A stretch of DNA of 64,000 bases from an uncultured Alphaproteobacteria bacterium (GTDB lineage: Bacteria; Pseudomonadota; Alphaproteobacteria; CAAGCB01; CAG-977), in NCBI GenBank assembly GCA_944393745.1, contig CALYBD010000003.1, positions 1 through 64,000 of the forward strand, read 5' to 3'. A program made the translations under genes and the position numbers. Below are positions 28,420-39,041 of the stretch, piece by piece; position 1 is the stretch's first letter; each line of letters opens with the position of its first letter. A model generated the notes under the pieces. That model ran no database searches. It was not told the origin of the DNA and saw only the letters and a program-made list of their open reading frames with translations.

Positions 28420-29328
28420 TTATTTTTTTCGCGGGTGAATCTGATCGGCGAATCTTTGCGCCAGACGAGAAAAAGGCAAAGATTGCACCCATACTTTTCC
28501 GGGACCGCGCAGATCGGCAAAAAACAGTCCGGACCCGCCGAAAATCTGCGATTTAATGCTGCCCGTTCCGGTAACGTTAAAGTATACGGACGGCTGAAAG
28601 GCAACCAAACAGCCGACATCAACCTGCAAGGCATCGCCTTCCTGTAATGTTATTTCGCCGATCGTTCCGCCGGCATGAATAAAAACAACGCCGTCGCCGC
28701 TGAGGCGCTGCATAATAAAACCCGCCCCGCCGAACAAAGCCGTCATAATCTTTTTTTGAAAATAAATGCCGATGTCAACGTCAGCCTGCGCGCATAGAAA
28801 GCTGTCTTTCTGACAGATAATTTCTCCGCCGAATCCGGACAGGGACAGAGGTATGATTTTTCCGGGATACGGAGCCGAAAAAGCCACCTTTGCCGGAGAG
28901 TTCAACGTGTTGATAAAAGAAGAAAGAAAAGCGCTTTCACCGGATAAAACCCGTTTGCCGGCACCGAAAAGCTTGCCGAAGATCCCTTGTTTTCGGCCGG
29001 TTCCCAGCAAAGCTTCCAGATCAATGGCGATTTCTTTATAAACCATCGCGCCGGGTTCGGCGATAACGGATTCGCCGGGCTGTAAAGTAATTTCGACATA
29101 CTGCATGTCATCGCCGCAGATTTTAAAATTCAGCCCCGAATTAAAATAAGTATCGGAAGACGGCGCCGATGCCGATGATCCCGTCAACGAAGAAAACCTG
29201 TCTGCCGGCACCCATTCGGGCATTCCTGCCTGCCAAACCAGGCAGTCCGGGTGAGCCTCAATAAACCGGGCGGCGTCTTGTTGAGAGAAAGGACCGTATT
29301 TTTGATTTCCGGATAAACAATACCACAT
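28420..29328 (-). CDS. GYF_2-AIM24 (TIGR00266-type) protein
   Basis: 302 residues. The N-terminus (about 1-48) is a GYF_2 domain: WYCLSGNQKYGPFSQQDAARFI ends in LVWQAGMPEWVPA. A linker of Ser/Ala follows, then the AIM24/TIGR00266 beta-rich domain (about 68-290) with LQPGESVIAEPGAMVYKE, FLCAQADVDIGIYFQKK, GDGVVFIHAGGTI and GPGKVWVQSLPF. The family's function is poorly known; the mitochondrial AIM24 protein affects cristae and the MICOS complex. It is the last gene of a four-gene operon (gap of 18 bases to the preceding gene). The GYF-like module suggests peptide binding or membrane-protein contact. Confidence 0.87.
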   Translation of the reverse strand: MWYCLSGNQKYGPFSQQDAARFIEAHPDCLVWQAGMPEWVPADRFSSLTGSSASAPSSDTYFNSGLNFKICGDDMQYVEITLQPGESVIAEPGAMVYKEIAIDLEALLGTGRKQGIFGKLFGAGKRVLSGESAFLSSFINTLNSPAKVAFSAPYPGKIIPLSLSGFGGEIICQKDSFLCAQADVDIGIYFQKKIMTALFGGAGFIMQRLSGDGVVFIHAGGTIGEITLQEGDALQVDVGCLVAFQPSVYFNVTGTGSIKSQIFGGSGLFFADLRGPGKVWVQSLPFSRLAQRFADQIHPRKK

Positions 29329-29346
29329 GGCCTTTTCCTCCTGCTC

Positions 29347-30570
29347 TTAATATTTATGCAAAAGCGTTGTGCCGACACGCCGATTACGCGGATTTTTGGA
29401 CAATAAATGCTGAATGTAACGTCCCTGAAACAAGGTAATGTTGTATTTTCTTGCCACCAACAGAGCCTCTTCATCATCAACGCGGCATAAAATGGCTCTG
29501 TTCGGGCCGATATTTAACAGTTTTTCGGTTAAAGCGGCGTCCTCTTGCAAAGCAAAAGGCAGATCCTGATTCCATGTCAGCTTGATGTAATCGGCCGCCA
29601 GACGTTCCCGGTCAATGAATTTCAACGTTTTATACGTTATACCGTCAATACAGATCTTGTATCCCAGATTTTGCGCATAATCCCGAGCCGTTAAATATGA
29701 GCGCAAATCGCTGAAGATATCAATCGGCTGCAATTCCAACACGATCGTGTTTTTCATGCCGGAACGAATATTGTCGTCAAATTCACGGAATTCTTCGGAT
29801 AAAATCGTGGAAATATTCAGGTTTAAAGAAAAATCATGCGTAAAGGCGCCGTCGTCATGCCGGGAAACGCTGTTTAAAACCCGCTTGTCCAATGTTTCCG
29901 TCAAATCCTGAAACAACCACGGCGTCGCGGTTAAGGAAACGCCCGGCAAAATCGATTCGCCTAAGTCCGCGATTGAAACAAAGACTTCTTCGAACAAAGG
30001 TTGCGGCTGGGCTTCTTCCAGAATGATACAGACGGACTGACGGCGGATCATGTTTGAAAAATCGGTGTTTTGCAGCGCTTTGGACACGCGCGCCAGCATT
30101 TCCGGGGTGAACAGTTTTTGATTTTTATCGAAAACAAACGGGGCGACAAATTTTCTTTTTTCTTTTTTATCGCCTAATTCCCTGGAAGGACCTTTGCCGA
30201 TTCGGGAAATTTCGAACATCAGAGCCTCTTTGTCATCGGGCAGGCGATAGGTTTTTTCCAATAATTTTTCCGGCTGCATTGTTTTTTTATCGGCGGAAAA
30301 ATGCATCCATGTTTTAATCAGCGCGGCTCTGATGGTGTTGTCGTTGATTTTGGGGGAATAGATAATGAAAATGTCGTCGTTTTTTAAACAAAAAGCCTGC
30401 CCGTACAAAGCCAAAACATCATAAAAACCGTTGATAATCGTATTTAACAGGCTGTCTTTGCGCAAAGCTTCGTCAATCAGGGAAATTTTAAGCTGCAAAA
30501 CAGTAAATGGCTGTCCGGATTTTATTTGCCCGGTCAGATAATTGCGAAGCGGTTCTTCCTGATTAATCAT
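29347..30570 (-). CDS. Degenerate GGDEF/EAL-like protein, paralogue 2
   Basis: 407 residues from the start at 30570, chosen for the GGAG site eight bases upstream; it overlaps the previous stop by eight bases. The N-terminal third resembles a shrunken GGDEF domain (FCLKNDDIFIIYSPK). The rest has the strand order of an EAL domain: FSLNLNISTI, IVLELQPIDI, YKICIDGITY, YIKLTWNQDL, ILCRVDDEEALL and LFQGRYIQ. The EAL triplet itself and the DDFG pair are absent, so c-di-GMP hydrolysis is not expected. It is clearly a paralogue of the upstream gene. It might be a binding-only or purely structural protein. Confidence 0.72.
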   Translation of the reverse strand: MINQEEPLRNYLTGQIKSGQPFTVLQLKISLIDEALRKDSLLNTIINGFYDVLALYGQAFCLKNDDIFIIYSPKINDNTIRAALIKTWMHFSADKKTMQPEKLLEKTYRLPDDKEALMFEISRIGKGPSRELGDKKEKRKFVAPFVFDKNQKLFTPEMLARVSKALQNTDFSNMIRRQSVCIILEEAQPQPLFEEVFVSIADLGESILPGVSLTATPWLFQDLTETLDKRVLNSVSRHDDGAFTHDFSLNLNISTILSEEFREFDDNIRSGMKNTIVLELQPIDIFSDLRSYLTARDYAQNLGYKICIDGITYKTLKFIDRERLAADYIKLTWNQDLPFALQEDAALTEKLLNIGPNRAILCRVDDEEALLVARKYNITLFQGRYIQHLLSKNPRNRRVGTTLLHKY

Positions 30571-31834
30571 CAGCGGAGCTCCTTTTGTATTCAATCGGCA
30601 TATCCAGCCGTTGAGGCATTAAACAGCCGGCCTTTTGTACACCGGCGATCCCGGCTTTTCTGGACACGCATTGCGCCTGTGTGCAGTTTTTTTTCTTCGG
30701 GCAGCTTTTTCTGATGTTGGCCGCTGTTAAGGCATCTATGAAATATCCCTGGAAACACCGGATATCGTGCATTAACCCCCAACGCAGAGAATCTTCGTCT
30801 TCGCAACGCATTAAAATAATGCGTCCGGGATCAATTCCTTGCAGCCAGTCGGATTCCGATTCTCTGTTCAAAGCCGGCGTCCAGTTCAGCTTCATTAAAT
30901 CCGAATCCAGAATGTTCATATCCATAAATTCAAAAGAAATCGGGTGCAGTCCGTCAATCAGAACCTGATGTCCCGCTTCGTGCAGCAAATCCCGGGCCAC
31001 CAGATAATTTTGTGTGTTTTGGATAATATCCATTAGCTGGACTTCGACAATGATTGACATTTTTTCCGGCATTTCCGCCAGAAATTGTTCAAAAGCCGGC
31101 GTGAAAATAGTGGATATATTTAAATTTAAAGAAATGTTTTTGGGCGTATGCGCAAACAATTCCTTAAAAATACCCAGCATTCTTTTATCCAGCGTTTCGC
31201 TGAGATGTTGAAACAACCATCTGTTGGATAATACGTTTACATCCGGCGCAATGGCTTTTTTCAAATCGGCCATGGAGGTAAAGTATTCCAAAAACAACGA
31301 AGATATTCCGCCTTCGCGAGTGATTCGGACGGCTTCCTGCCGGCGAATGATTTTTAAAATATTAAACCCCTGAATGTTGCGCAAAATGGCGTCCAGGTGT
31401 TCCGGCGCCAGCGGAATTTCTTTTTTCTTCAGCAGTTGATTTTCAACGGCTTTTTTACGTTCTTTGGCATAGGCCATGACAACGTCGAAATCGCGATTTA
31501 AAGGATAAACGCGTATGAAATCGTTCGGGTTGGACGCGGCAAAAGAATCGGATTGGAATATGCGTCTGACAGAAGCAACGGTATCGGTCAAAGACTGCGG
31601 CAAAATATTTTGACCGACCACCATAATGTCATTGTTTGCCAAAGCATACAAACCGGATTGGGATTTAATCATCAGTTCATTTAGGGCGCCAAGCGTCATT
31701 TGAACGTGATTTTGTGTTCGGTTGGCCGGGTTCAGCGCCGATATTTTGACAAGAATCGCTGTTGATCCCGCCTTCATCGGTTCAATGCGTTTTAATTTGT
31801 CAAGAAGCTGCTGTTCCGCTTTTGCCGCACTCAC
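30563..31834 (-). CDS. Degenerate GGDEF/EAL-like protein, paralogue 1
   Basis: 423 residues. Residues about 20-115 look like a decayed GGDEF domain (GLYALANNDIMVVGQ in the GGDEF position). Residues about 145-385 follow the EAL fold: ISLNLNISTIF, IIVEVQLMDII, QVLIDGLHP, LMKLNWTPAL, IILMRCEDEDSL and CFQGYFID, but EAL and DDFG are lost. The C-terminus (about 385-410) has five cysteines in 28 residues (SCPKKKNCTQAQC and later AGC), which may bind metal. It shares the family and order with the next gene and follows the lipoprotein gene by 34 bases. Catalysis is unlikely. Confidence 0.72.
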   Translation of the reverse strand: MSAAKAEQQLLDKLKRIEPMKAGSTAILVKISALNPANRTQNHVQMTLGALNELMIKSQSGLYALANNDIMVVGQNILPQSLTDTVASVRRIFQSDSFAASNPNDFIRVYPLNRDFDVVMAYAKERKKAVENQLLKKKEIPLAPEHLDAILRNIQGFNILKIIRRQEAVRITREGGISSLFLEYFTSMADLKKAIAPDVNVLSNRWLFQHLSETLDKRMLGIFKELFAHTPKNISLNLNISTIFTPAFEQFLAEMPEKMSIIVEVQLMDIIQNTQNYLVARDLLHEAGHQVLIDGLHPISFEFMDMNILDSDLMKLNWTPALNRESESDWLQGIDPGRIILMRCEDEDSLRWGLMHDIRCFQGYFIDALTAANIRKSCPKKKNCTQAQCVSRKAGIAGVQKAGCLMPQRLDMPIEYKRSSADD

Positions 31835-31868
31835 AAAAAATCCTTTCCGATTCTTTTAGGGGAATGAT

Positions 31869-33005
31869 TTATCTTAAATACAGATGAACTTCCGTTGTTT
31901 GAATGGACGGATTTTTTATTTTTGATAAAAAGATCCGACTTTCGGGCAATCCCATCGAGATTAAAGAAGAACGAACGGCATCGGCGTTTTTAGCGGCTTC
32001 AAGTTCGCCGTATTTTGAATTGGCGGGACTGACGGCAACTATTTCGAACCCCGTGCTCGGGCGTTTGTCCAAAGCGGCTTTGGCGGCTTTGTACAAAGGC
32101 TGTTCAAAGGCAACGTCTTTTTTGTTAAACCGAATTACCATCAGCGGTTTGCGTCCGTTCAGTTCGGCTTCGGGCAGGCTGGCGGCGGCCGGCAATAATG
32201 CCGGCGCAATCGAAGCCGCGGGAACTGTTGTGACGGCGGCCTGCGGTCTGACCGTTAACATGCTGCCTTTCTGAATATCCGTCCCCAGCAGATTGATATT
32301 CTGGCTTTCTGTGCTGAAATACTGTTGCTGGCGGGCGATTTGGGCAGAAACGTCGGAACTTAACCGGTTTAAAGAAACAACGGTTTGATTGGCCTTGTCT
32401 TCCAGCGCTTTTAAGTTTTCATGGTCAATTTCCATGGCGCCGGGAATCAGAAATGTTTCGTTGATTGTGTCCAAAAGTGAGTTCAGTTCATTTTTTGTCC
32501 GGATGATTTCACTGGAAAGCTTTGCCGTTTCGGACATGTTTTTATCCGATCCGCCCAGCAGAGTCGACGCCTGTTTCCACATGGCGGTCAATTCGGGGTT
32601 TCCGGGCGTTGTTCCGTTACGTAAACGGGCATGAATGCGGGCGATATATTCATAATATTGACGGGATTCTTCGGCATTTTTATTTTTCAGTTCACGAAAA
32701 ACGCCGGTATTTTTCTGAATATTTTCCTGAATCTGCTGTAATTTAGTTTCGATGGCGGCAACTTTTTTGCTGACTTCGGAAACGATCTGAGTCCCCGGCG
32801 TATAAGAGGAATCCGAAGTTTTTACGGCCTCTTTTTCGGAAGAATCATCATTTTTTTCTTCTGTTTGCGTTGTTTGTGCGCTTTCGGACGTTTGCATGGC
32901 AAAATCATCGGCAAAATAATCGTCGGGATAAGGATCAGAAGACGAGGCACACCCTGCAAAAGTCAGTAAAGCGGCAACCAAAGAGAGTCTTTTTAAAATG
33001 GACAT
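31869..33005 (-). CDS. Lipoprotein with OmpA-like C-terminal domain
   Basis: 378 residues. The signal peptide ends in a lipobox, LTFAGC, with Cys19 as lipidation site. The next part is acidic and Ser/Thr-rich (20-75), then a helical, probably coiled region (about 76-245), a Pro/Ala linker, and an OmpA-like domain (about 285-378, VIRFNKKDVAFEQPLYKAAKAAL). The peptidoglycan-binding Asp and Arg positions of OmpA domains (TDxxG, LSxxRA) read SP and AAKNADAV, so canonical binding looks lost. OmpA-domain lipoproteins occur in secretion systems, for example IcmN/DotK, but I cannot claim homology. First gene of the operon. Confidence 0.75.
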   Translation of the reverse strand: MSILKRLSLVAALLTFAGCASSSDPYPDDYFADDFAMQTSESAQTTQTEEKNDDSSEKEAVKTSDSSYTPGTQIVSEVSKKVAAIETKLQQIQENIQKNTGVFRELKNKNAEESRQYYEYIARIHARLRNGTTPGNPELTAMWKQASTLLGGSDKNMSETAKLSSEIIRTKNELNSLLDTINETFLIPGAMEIDHENLKALEDKANQTVVSLNRLSSDVSAQIARQQQYFSTESQNINLLGTDIQKGSMLTVRPQAAVTTVPAASIAPALLPAAASLPEAELNGRKPLMVIRFNKKDVAFEQPLYKAAKAALDKRPSTGFEIVAVSPANSKYGELEAAKNADAVRSSLISMGLPESRIFLSKIKNPSIQTTEVHLYLR

Positions 33006-33204: not shown

Positions 33205-33281
33205 GCGCCCATAGCTCAACTGGATAGAGCATCTGACTACGGATCAGAAGGCTGAGAGTTCGAATCTTTCTGGGCGCGCCA
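33205..33281 (+). tRNA. tRNA-Arg (anticodon ACG)
   Basis: Acceptor stem GCGCCCA pairs with TGGGCGC; D arm AGCTCAACTGGATAGAGC; anticodon stem TCTGA/TCAGA around loop CTACGGA gives anticodon ACG (read as ICG after deamination); T arm with TTCGAAT. CCA is encoded at 33279-33281. A terminator and then an IS element follow. Confidence 0.97.
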
Positions 33282-33435: not shown

Positions 33436-33918
33436 ATGAATGACATAAAGACATTATCACATACAGCATGGAACTGCAAATATCACATAGTATTCGCGCC
33501 GAAATATCGCCGCAAAGTATTTTATGGCGAAAAACGCTATGAGACAGGAAAAATACTCAAAGAACTGTGTGGATGGAAAGGAATAACGATAATAGAGGCG
33601 GAAGTATGTCCGGATCATGTGCATATGTTGGTTGAGATACCGCCGAAAATGAGTGTGTCGAGTTTTGTGGGCTTTCTGAAAGGTAAAAGCAGTTTGATGG
33701 TTTACGAACGGTGGAGCAATATAAAATTTAAATATCGTAACAGAGAATTCTGGTGCAAGGGATACTATGTGGACACTGCCGGTAAGAATGCCCATAAGAT
33801 TGCGGAATACATACAAAATCAGTTGAAAGAAGATGCTCTGTGTCTGACCCGTTTACGGGTAGCAAGTAACAAAATACTCCCGCCAGACCGTTGTACGCCG
33901 TTTAGGCGTCGCCAGTAG
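33436..33918 (+). CDS. tnpA: IS200-type Y1 transposase TnpA
   Basis: 160-residue HUH endonuclease that cuts and rejoins single-stranded IS ends. The start WNCKYHIVFAPKYRR is the IS200 signature; the HUH motif is HVH at 61-63 (CPDHVHMLV); KGKSSLMVYE and REFWCKGYYVDT follow; the catalytic Tyr is most likely Y125 in AEYIQNQL. Residues from about 133 (CLTRLRVASNK...) do not match the C-terminus I expect for IS200 transposases and read into the right end of the element, so the tail may be altered. The catalytic part looks whole. Confidence 0.92.
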   Translation: MNDIKTLSHTAWNCKYHIVFAPKYRRKVFYGEKRYETGKILKELCGWKGITIIEAEVCPDHVHMLVEIPPKMSVSSFVGFLKGKSSLMVYERWSNIKFKYRNREFWCKGYYVDTAGKNAHKIAEYIQNQLKEDALCLTRLRVASNKILPPDRCTPFRRRQ

Positions 33919-33975: not shown

Positions 33976-34941
33976 TTAAGCGTCAGGTTCTCGGAACAAA
34001 GGTTTGCCCTGAAACATACGCGCCGACTGCGATTCCATCAGGGTCCCCAGCGCAATCTGGCGATCTCTGATGCTGATACGCAATTGGTCTGCCGCGGTCG
34101 GATCGGGATTGGCAAAAACAAAACGGACTTCGGGAAACAACGTTTTAATTCCCTGCAGTTTTTGATGAATAACACCCAGAATGCCGCGTCCCAGCAGGTC
34201 TGCGGCCAGTTCTTCGCTCAGATCCGCGCTCATGGCATATTTGATGACAGAGTTCAGCGCATCTTCCACGCTGTTGGCGTGAATGGTTGACAACACCAAG
34301 TGTCCCGATGTCGCCGCGCGCAAAATCTGGCTGGCACAATCGGGGGTACGGATTTCGCCGACCAGAATATATCTGGGACGGCAACGCAAGGCAGATTTTA
34401 AGGATTCGCCCCAATCGTTGTTATCCGGTTCCGTTTGTTTGCACATACCCAGTCCGCCGCGTTTGGACTGATAAATACCGTCCAGCGGCATTTCGGGCGG
34501 ATCCTCAATCGTATAGGCATAGCCGCCTTCGCGTTCCAGGAATTTGCGCATCAGACAGGAAATGGACGTTGTTTTTCCTGCGCCTGTCGGTCCGGCCCAT
34601 AAGATCAGCCCGGATTCGCGGTTTAAAGAAATTAAGTGATTCGTGACGGCTTCCGGCAGACCCAACCTGACAACGTCCGGCGTTTTGCGCGGCATTCGGC
34701 GGGCGGAATACATAATTCCCGTTAATGTCGCAACGCGTTCAACGCGGTACATTGTGGATCCGTAGGCCATGGAATAACTGGATCGTCCCGTATAAGCCCG
34801 TTCCAAAGCCTGGTGAAATTCTTCGGCATCGTCTACTTCCAAAACTTTCAGTCCGAAACGTGTTTCGCCGTCATGAACATATAAAGTATGATCGGGAGTA
34901 TACCAAATATCTGAAAAAAGTTGTTCGTCGATTGTTGCCAT
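33976..34941 (-). CDS. PilT/DotB-like secretion or pilus ATPase
   Basis: 321 residues of the GspE/PilT/VirB11 hexameric ATPase superfamily. The N-terminal domain (about 1-100) is short. Walker A is AGPTGAGKTTSIS (about 133-145), the Asp box contains TIEDPPEMPL, Walker B is YILVGEIRTPD, and the His box STIHANSVEDALN. There is no tetracysteine motif, which separates it from GspE/PilB-type assembly ATPases and favours PilT or DotB/TraJ-type proteins. No pilin, inner-membrane platform or other secretion gene lies in the window, so its machine is elsewhere or lost. The IS element sits just after its stop codon. Confidence 0.85.
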   Translation of the reverse strand: MATIDEQLFSDIWYTPDHTLYVHDGETRFGLKVLEVDDAEEFHQALERAYTGRSSYSMAYGSTMYRVERVATLTGIMYSARRMPRKTPDVVRLGLPEAVTNHLISLNRESGLILWAGPTGAGKTTSISCLMRKFLEREGGYAYTIEDPPEMPLDGIYQSKRGGLGMCKQTEPDNNDWGESLKSALRCRPRYILVGEIRTPDCASQILRAATSGHLVLSTIHANSVEDALNSVIKYAMSADLSEELAADLLGRGILGVIHQKLQGIKTLFPEVRFVFANPDPTAADQLRISIRDRQIALGTLMESQSARMFQGKPLFREPDA

Positions 34942-35004: not shown

Positions 35005-35808
35005 TTAGATGATTATTTTATGACGTCGGTGTAACAAACAGCACAACAAAAACAAAACGGCGCAGACGATTTCCATTGACGGGGCGGCCGGCATGTCGAA
35101 ATAAACGGAACAGGCCAGCCCGCAAACAACGCTGAACAGACCGATCAAAGACCCGGTGACGGCCATGCCTTCGGGGGTTTTTGCCAAAAAACGTGCGGCC
35201 GCCGGCGGAATCAGCAACAATGCCGAAACCAACAGCAGTCCGGTCGTTTTTAACGCCAAAGAAACAAATAAAGCTGTTAAAAGCATAAAAATGACGGATT
35301 GTCGTGCCGTTGAAACGTTTTCGCTTTGGGCGACATCGGGCAGAACGGCGGTAAAGATCTGTTTTTTCCAGTTAAAGAACAATAATACGGCGCACAGACT
35401 GCCTGTAACGGCAATAAAGAACAGATCCCGGCTGCTGACCGATAGGACATCGCCGAACAAATAGGCGCTTAAATCCGTTCTGATTCCCGGCAGACAGTTC
35501 AGGCCGATCAGCCCCAGACACAGCGCTGTTTGTCCGATAATCAACAACAATAAATCCGTGCCGATTATAAACTTTTCCGAAACTCTGACCAGCAACAAAG
35601 CCGTCAGACAAACAATAACGGCAACGCCGGCGTTTTGTCCGATGCCAAGCCCGATGCCAAGCAGTACGCCGGCCAAAGCCGAATGAGACAGAGCATCACT
35701 GAAATAAGCCATACGCCGCCAAATCATCAGACAGCCGATCGGTCCGGCCAGAACAGCCATTGTGCCGGCGGCCAGCAACCCGCGTAAAATAAAAGGTTCA
35801 GTCCACAT
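35005..35808 (-). CDS. znuB: Zinc ABC transporter permease ZnuB
   Basis: Membrane subunit for zinc (possibly manganese) import, ABC-3 family. 267 residues from the start at 35808, chosen for the GGGAG site and the normal ZnuB opening (PFILRGLLAAGTMAVLAGPIGCLMIWRRMAYFSDALSH); a longer reading frame upstream is znuC read in another frame. About eight membrane helices, with the conserved GVLLGIGLG and LLLIPPAAARFLA. It overlaps znuC by 11 bases. The C-terminus ends HRRHKIII. Confidence 0.93.
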   Translation of the reverse strand: MWTEPFILRGLLAAGTMAVLAGPIGCLMIWRRMAYFSDALSHSALAGVLLGIGLGIGQNAGVAVIVCLTALLLVRVSEKFIIGTDLLLLIIGQTALCLGLIGLNCLPGIRTDLSAYLFGDVLSVSSRDLFFIAVTGSLCAVLLFFNWKKQIFTAVLPDVAQSENVSTARQSVIFMLLTALFVSLALKTTGLLLVSALLLIPPAAARFLAKTPEGMAVTGSLIGLFSVVCGLACSVYFDMPAAPSMEIVCAVLFLLCCLLHRRHKIII

Positions 35809-36550
35809 ATTGAATACTCCCGTCCGGCAGATGCAGATGATCATGATGGTGGCGATAAACGGCCAAAGCCGATTTTTCGCCGTATAAAGTGCGATATCCC
35901 GGCAGAGATTCGATTTCATCGGGGTGTCCGCTGCAACAAATGTGGCGGTTGATGCACAAGACTCTGTTTGAACCGGCCATAACAACGTGCAGGTCATGTG
36001 ATACCATTAAGATGGCGCATTTTTTTGTTTGGTTCAGTTCGTTCAATAAAGCATAAAATTGTTCTTCTCCCACAGGATCCAATCCTTGAACCGGCTCGTC
36101 CAATACCAACAGATCCGGCTGTTTTAACAATGTTCTGGCCAACATGACGCGTTGCATTTCTCCGCCGGATAAGGGGTGAATGCTGCGCTGCAAAATCTCC
36201 GGCGCCAGACCGGTTTGATTTAACACGCCGACCAATTCCCGGTCGTCGTAAGAGGTGTCCAAACATAAAAAACGCTTAACCGTCAAAGCAATGCTGCGGG
36301 GTAAGTGTAATTTTTGGGGAACATAGCCGATTTTTAATCCGCTTTTTTTCCAAACGCGGCCGCTGTCGGGGCGGACAATGCCCAAAATAACTTTCAGCAG
36401 CGTTGTTTTTCCCGCGCCGTTCGGCCCGATCAGCGTTACGATTTGTCCGGCCGGTATGTCAAAAGTAATGTTTTCCAGCACGCGGACGTGATTAAGACTG
36501 AGGCAAACGTCTTCCAGATTGACCAATATTTCTTGTTGTTGTTCAGACAT
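35798..36550 (-). CDS. znuC: Zinc ABC transporter ATPase ZnuC
   Basis: ATP-binding subunit, 250 residues from the ATG at 36550; a GTG at 36571 with an AGGA upstream is a possible alternative. Walker A GPNGAGKTTLLK, Q-loop GYVPQKL, signature LSGGEMQRVMLAR, Walker B LLVLDEPVQGLDP and the switch His in VSHDLHVV are all intact. The C-terminus is His-rich (YRHHHDHLHLPDG), typical of zinc transport ATPases. It is divergent from znuA across a spacer of about 70 bases. Confidence 0.95.
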   Translation of the reverse strand: MSEQQQEILVNLEDVCLSLNHVRVLENITFDIPAGQIVTLIGPNGAGKTTLLKVILGIVRPDSGRVWKKSGLKIGYVPQKLHLPRSIALTVKRFLCLDTSYDDRELVGVLNQTGLAPEILQRSIHPLSGGEMQRVMLARTLLKQPDLLVLDEPVQGLDPVGEEQFYALLNELNQTKKCAILMVSHDLHVVMAGSNRVLCINRHICCSGHPDEIESLPGYRTLYGEKSALAVYRHHHDHLHLPDGSIQYVD

Positions 36551-36581
36551 GAAAGTATCCGGTTTTAGCACTTGTTTTTCC

Positions 36582-36598
36582 TGTCATAGCGTAATACA
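36582..36598. promoter_or_regulatory. Possible Zur/Fur-type operator in the znuC-znuA spacer
   Basis: TGTCATAGCGTAATACA has dyad symmetry at TGTnnTAnnnTAnnACA and sits in the divergent spacer between znuC and znuA, where a zinc-responsive repressor would be expected. The symmetry is imperfect, so this is only a suggestion. Confidence 0.3.
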
Positions 36599-36619
36599 GA
36601 ATAAAGGAAAAGAGGAAAA

Positions 36620-37525
36620 ATGATGTTTTTCAGAACTGTTTTTGCGCTGTTTTGCGGTTTTGTTTTTTTTGGAAAAACCGTATCGGCTCAGCCGGCCGTG
36701 ATTGTTTCCGTTGCGCCGCTGCATTCGGCGGTCAGTGCCGTCATGCAGGGTGTCGGTACGCCGGAATTGTTGTTAAATCCGGCCGTGTCCGTTCATGATT
36801 ATCATTTAAAGCCGTCCGATATGCAGCGTCTGGCAAAGGCTGATATTTTGTTCTGGGGCGGGGCGGCATTGGAATCGTTTTTGCAAAAGCCGCTGGTATC
36901 TGCCGGACTGTCGGATAAAAACGTTGCTTTTTTGGCGGATCCGCGGCTGAAAACGTATCCGTTTCGCAGCGCTTCGACGGCCGATGTCGACGGACATTTC
37001 TGGCTGGATCCCGAAAACATGGCGCAGGCAGCCCGGATCGCGGCAGAAAAGCTGGCAGTATCGGATCCTGCTCATGCGGTTCTTTATTCCGAAAATGCCG
37101 ACCGGTTTGAACAACAGATGCGAGAACTGAAAGAAAACGGACAAAGCAAACTGCAGGCGTATCTTGATCGGCCGTACGTGACATTTCACGATGCCTATCA
37201 GTATTTTGAAAAAAGTTTTCATTTAACACCGATCGGGTTTGTTTTTGTTGATCCTCATCATGCCGGCAGTGCGGGACATATCGCCGGTTTGCGCGAAAAA
37301 ATAAGACAGGCAGGCAAAGTATGCCTGTTTGCAGAACCGCAGTTTTCTGATAAAAGAATAAAAATCGTTGCGGAAGATCTGCCCGTCATTTTCGGGACGC
37401 TGGATCCGTCGGGCGTTAATTTAAAGCCGGGGGTTGGATTTTACGCGGAGTTGATGAATAATTTATTTGAATCGTTTGCCGGGTGCTTTTCCCGGTTGGC
37501 GGAACAGGGAACGGGTGGGAGATAG
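36620..37525 (+). CDS. znuA: Zinc ABC transporter substrate-binding protein ZnuA
   Basis: Periplasmic metal-binding protein of the cluster A-I family. 301 residues with a signal peptide (about 1-23, cleavage after VSA). Metal ligands expected from the family are visible as His in SVHDYHLKPSDM (about 57-62), His in FHDAY (about 192), and the acidic GTLDPSG near the C-terminus. The His-rich loop between the first two ligands that many ZnuA have is missing or reduced to DVDGHFWLDPEN. A strong AGGA-type site precedes the start. The exported Memo-AMMECR1 gene begins four bases after its stop. Confidence 0.92.
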   Translation: MMFFRTVFALFCGFVFFGKTVSAQPAVIVSVAPLHSAVSAVMQGVGTPELLLNPAVSVHDYHLKPSDMQRLAKADILFWGGAALESFLQKPLVSAGLSDKNVAFLADPRLKTYPFRSASTADVDGHFWLDPENMAQAARIAAEKLAVSDPAHAVLYSENADRFEQQMRELKENGQSKLQAYLDRPYVTFHDAYQYFEKSFHLTPIGFVFVDPHHAGSAGHIAGLREKIRQAGKVCLFAEPQFSDKRIKIVAEDLPVIFGTLDPSGVNLKPGVGFYAELMNNLFESFAGCFSRLAEQGTGGR

Positions 37526-37529
37526 TCCG

Positions 37530-39041
37530 GTGAAATTTTCGATAGTTGCGGTTTTGTTTTTTTTCCTGTTGCCTTTTGATCTGTCCGCTCAGACCATTAT
37601 GCCGCAAAAGATCAGATATCCCGTTGCAGCCGGGACTTTTTATCCTCGTGACGCCCGGGAGTTATCCAAAAAAACGGCGGATTTGATCGAATCTGCGGAT
37701 CGTCGGTTGCGTTTGCCGGCTTCGGAAATTCCCAAAGCAATCGTCGTGCCGCATAATGCGTTTTATTTTTCGGGCGATGTGGCTGCGGCGGGATACGCGG
37801 CGTTGCGGCGGTTAAAGCCTTTTATCCGGCGCGTTGTTTTAATCGGATCATCTCATCAGGGAAAGTATTTCGGTATTTCTTTGTCTCGGGCAAAGTATTG
37901 GGAAATGCCCAATCAGCGTTTTGAAGTCGATCAGGAACTGACGGAAAAATTATTGAAAATTCAGGGGATCGGATTTGACGATGACGCCCATGAAGCGGAA
38001 TCGTCTTTGGAAATGCAGCTGCCTTTTGTCAGTGCGGTTTTTAATAAAGACGTCAAAATCATGCCGATTTTGGTCGAAGATGCCAGTATTGAACAGGTGT
38101 CGGATCTGATTGCCGCCGTTTGGGGCGGGCCCGAAACGGTTATTATTGTTTCAACGGATATGTCTTCGGGCAAACAGGACGAAAAAGTCAGATCGGATAT
38201 TTACGATATATCCAAGCTGTTGGAAAAAGAAGAGTATACGAAAATCAGATCCAGACATTTTTGCGCGCCGCTGCCCGTTGCAGGGCTGTTGTCATACGTT
38301 CGGGAAAATCATTTTTCCGTTCAGACAATCGAGTTGCAAACATCGGCCGATTCTTTTCTGACGGCCGACAAGGTTATCGGATTCGGGGCCTTCGGTGTTT
38401 ATGAAACAAACGACGGAGCCGAAGACAACAAAGTGCAGATGGAAAACATACTGCAAGCCAATCAGGAATCTTTGCTGCGTGTTGCGGCGCAATCCATTGT
38501 GACCGGTTTTGAACGCGGTCGTCCGCTGCGTCTGCGGGAAACGCGTTATCCCGAAGAATTGCGCCAAAAAGGGGCAACTTTTGTTAACATTTATTATGAC
38601 GGTGTTTTGCGCGGCAGCGCGGGATCCGGCGAACCGACACGGTCAATTTTAAAAGATATTGCCGAAAATGCCTATGCGGCGGCTTTTTCGGATTTTCGCT
38701 TTATTCCTTTGAACGAAGAAGAAATCAAAAAAGCCGAAATAACAATTTCCGTTTTAACCCGTCCGATGCCGATTCGATTTGAAAACGAAAAAGAATTGCT
38801 GGCAAAGATCAAACCGAAACAAGACGGTTTGATTTTACGGGAACGTTCAAACAAAGCTTTGTTTTTGCCGCAGGTTTGGGAAACGTTTTCTTCTCCGGAA
38901 GAGTTTCTGGGCTATTTAAAACAAAAAGCGGGACTGCCGATGGATTACTGGTCACCGACGGTAAAAGTATATCGTTTTGACGTTATTGATATTAACAGCG
39001 GCGATTTGGAAAATCCGGAATCGATCTGGCTGCCGAAATAG
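37530..39041 (+). CDS. Exported Memo-AMMECR1 fusion protein
   Basis: 503 residues from a GTG at 37530, chosen because GGGAG precedes it and it yields a clean signal peptide (KFSIVAVLFFFLLPFDLSAQ); the longer frame lies inside znuA. Residues about 27-290 are a Memo domain (YPVAAGTFYP, VVPHNAFYFSG, GSSHQGKYFG, HEAESSLEMQLPF), keeping the His positions linked with metal binding. Residues about 315-500 are an AMMECR1 domain (NAYAAAFSDFRFIPL, SVLTRPMP, LFLPQVWETF). The usual LRGCIGT motif reads LRGSAGS. It corresponds to parts A and B of the so-called AmmeMemoRadiSam set; no radical-SAM partner is near. Four bases after znuA, so a metal-related role is inferred. Confidence 0.87.
   Translation: MKFSIVAVLFFFLLPFDLSAQTIMPQKIRYPVAAGTFYPRDARELSKKTADLIESADRRLRLPASEIPKAIVVPHNAFYFSGDVAAAGYAALRRLKPFIRRVVLIGSSHQGKYFGISLSRAKYWEMPNQRFEVDQELTEKLLKIQGIGFDDDAHEAESSLEMQLPFVSAVFNKDVKIMPILVEDASIEQVSDLIAAVWGGPETVIIVSTDMSSGKQDEKVRSDIYDISKLLEKEEYTKIRSRHFCAPLPVAGLLSYVRENHFSVQTIELQTSADSFLTADKVIGFGAFGVYETNDGAEDNKVQMENILQANQESLLRVAAQSIVTGFERGRPLRLRETRYPEELRQKGATFVNIYYDGVLRGSAGSGEPTRSILKDIAENAYAAAFSDFRFIPLNEEEIKKAEITISVLTRPMPIRFENEKELLAKIKPKQDGLILRERSNKALFLPQVWETFSSPEEFLGYLKQKAGLPMDYWSPTVKVYRFDVIDINSGDLENPESIWLPK

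Follow-up and report, generated by a model that had tools for sequence, protein, structure and literature searches.

Four neighbouring genes in a 64,000-nucleotide stretch of an uncultured alphaproteobacterial genome (assembly GCA_944393745.1, contig CALYBD010000003.1, positions 1 to 64,000; the whole stretch is referred to as the window) raise the question of what two adjacent, degenerate GGDEF-EAL proteins, termed EAL1 and EAL2, do between a lipoprotein gene and a GYF_2-AIM24 gene. An earlier note on this DNA had suggested that the four genes could be one module, either a receptor for cyclic di-guanosine monophosphate (c-di-GMP) or an envelope-organising system. Across genomes, it is the EAL1-EAL2 pair that is conserved and not the four-gene operon. 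The pair is best explained as a co-translated, cytosolic and probably heterodimeric GGDEF-EAL receptor or adaptor that would not hydrolyse its ligand, a reading to which a probability of about 0.5 is assigned. Since the two genes always occur together and most of the binding pocket is intact, the pair is probably a receptor and not debris. The features computed for it comprise the dual fold, paralogy, co-inheritance, coupling of the genes, invariance of pocket residues and of a C-terminal cysteine tail, and loss of hydrolytic residues.

Fold and paralogy of EAL1 and EAL2

The structure of EAL1 was predicted with AlphaFold2 from a 14-sequence alignment, giving a mean predicted local distance difference test score (pLDDT) of 85.7 and a predicted template modelling score (pTM) of 0.62. 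In a Foldseek search the model matches dual GGDEF-EAL structures end to end, with PA0861 (2.3e-11), MorA (5.3e-11) and LapD of V. cholerae (1.1e-10) followed by single EAL domains, among them YahA, RocR and FimX. The EAL fold is assigned with a Foldseek probability of 1.00 to many EAL structures. While the fold of each domain is reliable, the orientation between the domains is not (full-length template modelling score about 0.4, root-mean-square deviation 15–20 Å). EAL2 is retrieved by the EAL1 query with 36% identity and an E value of 1.3e-38, and its profile matches RbdA/PA0861 in the PDB (1.1e-6). EAL1, according to its predicted structure, and EAL2, by homology to EAL1, thus have the dual GGDEF-EAL fold; both this fold and the paralogy of the two proteins had been proposed in the earlier note.

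The Pfam family EAL (PF00563) matches EAL2 at 1.9e-7 and EAL1 at 0.0053, with bit scores of 16.6 for EAL1 and of 31.1 and 31.9 in two scans for EAL2 (gathering score 31.3). Neither a GG(D/E)EF motif nor a PF00990 match was found in EAL1 (NNDIM) or EAL2 (NDDIF). As the tested members fall short of the Pfam cut-off or lie close to it, many of the family would be overlooked in domain-based surveys of c-di-GMP proteins in Alphaproteobacteria. By a hydropathy cut, both window proteins are free of membrane segments; the cut is exceeded by none of 81 EAL1 and one of 88 EAL2 sequences.

Conservation of the gene pair

With an EAL2 profile (A3), 202 relatives were retrieved from a set holding one genome for each species, and the analysis retained the best 80 loci. 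Two adjacent family members are present in all 80, a recurrence that speaks against chance. These loci include Magnetospirillum, Paramagnetospirillum, Phaeospirillum, Terasakiella and other Rhodospirillaceae, and the pair is also found in gut lineages, for example in Azospirillum sp. CAG:239. The first member of the pair carries a C-terminal tail with four cysteines (Cys4 tail) in 77 loci, the frameshifted L116 among them; it is missing in L123, L129 and L133, which belong to Rhodospirillaceae and related organisms. The 863-residue reading frame of L116 is not a gene fusion, but the result of a frameshift in EAL1 that runs on into EAL2. A possible EAL2 start lies between −30 and +60 bases from the EAL1 stop in 73 of 74 measurable pairs, mostly within 20 bases.

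A search of 289 genomes of the class with an EAL1 profile found a family member in 90, and every genome with a match spanning the full Cys tail has a second family member alongside. Many other genomes carry a single EAL2-like gene, which suggests that EAL2 is nearer the ancestral form. In a 100-row tree the EAL1 sequences and the EAL2 sequences each cluster, with matching lineage branching in both groups. Origin of the two from one duplication is likely, albeit not proven, as the deepest tree support is weak.

The EAL pockets

Pocket residues were counted over 81 EAL1, 88 EAL2 and 12 single-copy homologues, where some rows are duplicated (e.g. L014 and L080, L047 and L074), so that the counts are slightly inflated. 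The Gln of the YQP motif, the Glu of the EAL motif, the metal-binding Asn and Glu, the first Asp of the DDFG motif, the Lys and the Gln of the QG motif, all assigned to canonical positions of the EAL active site, are invariant in all three groups. Since these seven residues never vary, the earlier statement that both proteins lack the catalytic triplets is wrong in detail. Profile alignments support the positions of Asn, Glu, Asp, Lys and Gln, and the EAL Glu and YQP Gln were placed by motif and by a predicted strand pair of EAL1 (residues 164–171 and 177–185).

Other parts of the pocket are lost. Gly replaces the second Asp of DDFG in 87 of 88 EAL2 sequences and in most EAL1 sequences, and almost every pair member has Cys, Ala, Ser or Met in place of the Glu of the EGVE motif (Glu352 in RocR). 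Loop 6 has disappeared, with DFGTGYSS absent, and the ExLxR motif has kept its Glu and lost its Arg. Among the invariant residues, the EAL Glu, the Asn, the Glu and the first Asp presumably constitute the first metal site of EAL enzymes, the second site being lost. Loop 6 and Glu352 have been reported to be needed for hydrolysis (PMC12943098, PMC10333796). Judged by the hydrolytic residues that have disappeared, the pair has likely lost catalysis, and to this extent the idea of inactive proteins holds.

The Cys4 tail

The Cys cluster mentioned in the earlier note is real and is located at the C-terminus of EAL1 (C378-x5-C384-x4-C389-x14-C404). Its spacing, C-x5-C-x4-C-x14-C, is exact in 75 of 81 EAL1 sequences and nearly so in the other six. 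A Pfam family covering the tail of EAL1 was not found. The four cysteines at fixed spacing suggest a zinc (Zn) or iron-sulphur (Fe-S) site.

Gene layout and flanking genes

Coordinates of the four genes, all on one strand as described earlier, are listed in Table 1. With the ATG at 30570 taken as the start of EAL2 (an alternative TTG at 30594 is the start in the list of open reading frames), the previously given distances of 34, −8 and 18 bases between lipoprotein gene, EAL1, EAL2 and AIM24 gene are confirmed. Promoter-like and terminator-like sites in the region are barely more frequent than expected by chance, so that such simple scans do not settle where transcription starts and stops.

Table 1. 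Genes and gene overlap at the EAL1-EAL2 locus of the window
Feature	Position	Strand	Description
Lipoprotein gene	31869-33005	minus	flank gene, outside the conserved pair
EAL1	30563-31834	minus	degenerate GGDEF (NNDIM), non-canonical EAL (EYF), C-terminal Cys4 tail
EAL2	29347-30570	minus	degenerate GGDEF (NDDIF), non-canonical EAL (EVF), no Cys tail
Overlap of EAL1 stop and EAL2 start, 8 bases	30563-30570	minus	translational coupling, from sequence
GYF_2-AIM24 gene	28420-29328	minus	flank gene, outside the conserved pair

In the family of the window's genome, 9 of the 12 genomes, counting the window's own, keep the order lipoprotein-EAL1-EAL2-AIM24; AIM24 is absent at the locus in G009 and G010. 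A 98% complete genome of the same genus (G001) retains the lipoprotein gene (C12:568-1752) and the AIM24 gene (C12:2153-3058), followed by rplU and obg. About 400 bases remain between the two flank genes (L175, G001:C12:1-8000), and the pair was found nowhere in this genome, which represents a natural loss of the pair alone. The pair occurs without lipoprotein or AIM24 neighbours in the 72 other loci of the scan. Outside the window's family, the lipoprotein was seen beside the pair in no locus read, and it is present unlinked to the pair in 26 of 49 class genomes searched. The sole hint of a wider link comes from the distant genome G042 (L055), where an AIM24-GYF_2 gene lies near a diverged pair, with a solute-binding-protein gene in between. 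The two flanks are a local arrangement of the window's family; the gene order was seen within this family and, in the loci read, not beyond it, and the four-gene module was rejected as the conserved unit. A lipoprotein homologue about 3 kilobases upstream of rplU and obg was also seen in a distant family without the pair (L183, G054:C65); as a single case with other genes between, it was not accepted as a conserved arrangement outside the window's family.

The flank proteins themselves correspond to their earlier description as an OmpA-like outer lipoprotein and a GYF_2-AIM24 protein. The lipoprotein has a lipobox (LTFAGC) and a long coiled coil, and in its model (pLDDT 75.5) an N-terminal stretch of low confidence is followed by three long helices and, at the C-terminus, an OmpA-like fold. 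This fold best matches PA0833, Pal and OprF (E values of 2e-3 to 9e-3, probability 1.00) and stays below the Pfam cut-off; a Pfam search of the lipoprotein gave nothing convincing. Visual inspection of an alignment shows Ser or Pro and Asn where the Asp and Arg of the usual peptidoglycan site would be expected. A pilus link through CpaD was rejected: three relatives of the lipoprotein match CpaD weakly, and the window's genome has no CpaD at E 0.001. The last gene matches the Pfam domains GYF_2 (8.9e-11) and AIM24 (PF01987; 6.6e-66, 222.3 bits at a cut-off of 25.7).

A tRNA-Arg gene (ACG; 33205-33281) is situated between the operon and an IS200-like Y1 transposase gene (33436-33918), which lies just upstream of the operon on the opposite strand. 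Further along are a stand-alone PilT/DotB-like ATPase (33976-34941; 94% identity in G005), beside which no secretion genes were seen, an adjoining, likely zinc-uptake cluster of ATP-binding cassette (ABC) permease, ABC ATPase and ZnuA-like binding protein (35005-37525), and a Memo-AMMECR1 fusion protein (37467-39041).

Cellular setting

The window's genome encodes three GGDEF proteins, one canonical EAL protein besides EAL2, and flagellin. No PilZ protein was found in it, and a PilZ partner was rejected for this reason. Each of the 33 genomes tested, the smallest of about 0.9 megabases, encodes canonical GGDEF proteins; the set, which includes G001, consists of 11 genomes of the window's family and 22 small genomes of the class with a family member.

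In a sister gut lineage, the same-strand genes just upstream of EAL1 form a cluster that covers about 21 loci, the median distance being 64.5 bases. The cluster members read lie 49–92 bases upstream, and a scan of one of them identified a hybrid histidine kinase that includes a receiver domain. Together with the solute-binding-protein gene in G042, this kinase gives a gene context that points to signalling. A kinase upstream of EAL1 was noted in L075-L079, L083, L093, L103, L109, L111 and L127, and some of these kinases, read by eye, start with a secreted, solute-binding-like sensor region.

Possible function of the pair

An ancient duplication would have given rise to an always-adjacent, cytosolic pair of pseudo-GGDEF-EAL proteins, which probably fold together as a heterodimer. 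Each EAL pocket may form a one-metal, phosphate-binding site that holds a nucleotide second messenger without hydrolysing it, the ligand most likely being c-di-GMP or one of its breakdown products. Binding would alter the shape of the dimer and relay the signal to a partner, and the Cys4 tail of EAL1 could bind Zn or an Fe-S cluster and so serve in docking or redox sensing.

Several observations weigh against this explanation. All 169 EAL1 and EAL2 sequences carry Ser, Ala or Gly in place of the ExLxR Arg, the residue reported to be diagnostic and decisive for the binding of c-di-GMP by degenerate EAL receptors (PMC10333796). For the EAL Glu and the YQP Gln, the assigned positions rely on motif and predicted strands because the global profile alignment is ambiguous in that stretch. 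The co-occurrence with GGDEF proteins comes without a base rate; as the 33 genomes include G001, which has no pair, and no comparison set, the presence of GGDEF proteins is only consistent with a link to c-di-GMP. Furthermore, the loss of the pair from G001, a member of the window's own genus, indicates that it is not essential.

The loss of the ExLxR Arg, of loop 6 and of two catalytic acids would also fit a ligand-free scaffold, in which the pair works through protein-protein contact in the manner of YdiV and CsrD and the pocket is structural; degenerate EAL proteins without a ligand are known (PMC10333796). However, the pocket residues of a free scaffold should drift, and seven invariant polar residues in families down to 30% identity are hard to explain structurally, so that a scaffold, although to be reckoned with, appears unlikely.

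The fold matches, with LapD among the best over both domains, speak for a c-di-GMP receptor like LapD and FimX, as does LapD being the best sequence match of EAL1. LapD of V. cholerae moreover has a similar change in the EGVE motif (SRVET versus CRVDD), and GGDEF proteins occur in all genomes tested. Nevertheless, the pair has no membrane part, and with the ExLxR Arg replaced in every member this kind of receptor is weakened to the point of being rather improbable. Of the c-di-GMP receptor considered in the earlier note, a receptor role as such stays plausible.

An active phosphodiesterase, using one-metal or otherwise altered chemistry or acting on a new substrate, could account for the invariant metal-site Glu, Asn, Glu and Asp together with Lys and Gln, but is very unlikely given that the second metal ligand, the EGVE Glu and loop 6 are lost, the latter two being those reported as necessary for hydrolysis (PMC12943098, PMC10333796). 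Least credible is an envelope-organising module of outer membrane lipoprotein, pair and AIM24 protein, an idea that owes its appeal to the interaction of yeast Aim24 with the mitochondrial contact site and cristae organizing system (MICOS; PMC3975624) and could draw on the gene order in 9 of 12 genomes of the family and on the AIM24-GYF_2 gene near the diverged pair of G042, since the pair lacks these neighbours in the 72 other loci, the lipoprotein is unlinked in 26 of 49 genomes, G001 keeps both flanks without the pair, G009 and G010 have no AIM24 at the locus, and nothing in the analysis connects the pair to a role of the Aim24-MICOS type.

Taken further, the receptor or adaptor reading would make the pair a heterodimer whose one-metal pockets read a ligand different from c-di-GMP and whose Cys4 tail, as a metal or redox module, passes the signal to a kinase or to a flagellar or envelope target across Rhodospirillales-like Alphaproteobacteria; such an undescribed class of paired nucleotide receptors is a speculative and improbable extension. 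Literature searches for the pair, GYF-AIM24 proteins and Cys-cluster EAL proteins turned up no matching description. Pseudo-EAL proteins are usually labelled degenerate and set aside. Here, about 170 sequences display a precise pattern of kept and lost residues, the partner gene is constant and the Cys4 tail hardly varies; together these features offer a clear, testable case of an enzyme fold turned receptor that is present in cultured Magnetospirillum strains.

Comparison with known systems

The c-di-GMP receptor LapD of Pseudomonas and Vibrio resembles the pair in having two degenerate domains in the same order, a full-length fold match, a similar EGVE change and most other pocket residues kept. 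In contrast to LapD, the pair has no membrane or periplasmic part, is arranged in tandem and bears a Cys4 tail on one member, and it has lost the ExLxR Arg and kept the EAL Glu. PA0861/RbdA and MorA, both active phosphodiesterases, are the best fold matches, and their Asn, Glu, Asp, Lys and Gln align with those of the pair in the profile search, whereas the DDFG and EGVE motifs intact in these enzymes are both lost in the pair. The flank gene is a full member of the AIM24/TIGR00266 family, with its AIM24 part matching PA3696 (1yox) at 1.2e-69 and above the TIGR00266 cut-off, and differs in an extra N-terminal GYF_2 domain. The Caulobacter proteins TipF and PopA, inactive effectors of the EAL and GGDEF type (PMC3764195), are likewise alphaproteobacterial superfamily members that lack enzymatic activity and serve new roles, but are single proteins; they are not taken as orthologues of the pair, no TipF sequence having been compared. 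YdiV and CsrD (PMC10333796), finally, share with the pair EAL domains that do not hydrolyse and act through contact with other molecules. Unlike the pair, they are gammaproteobacterial and not in tandem, and it is the pair family in which the metal-site residues are kept.

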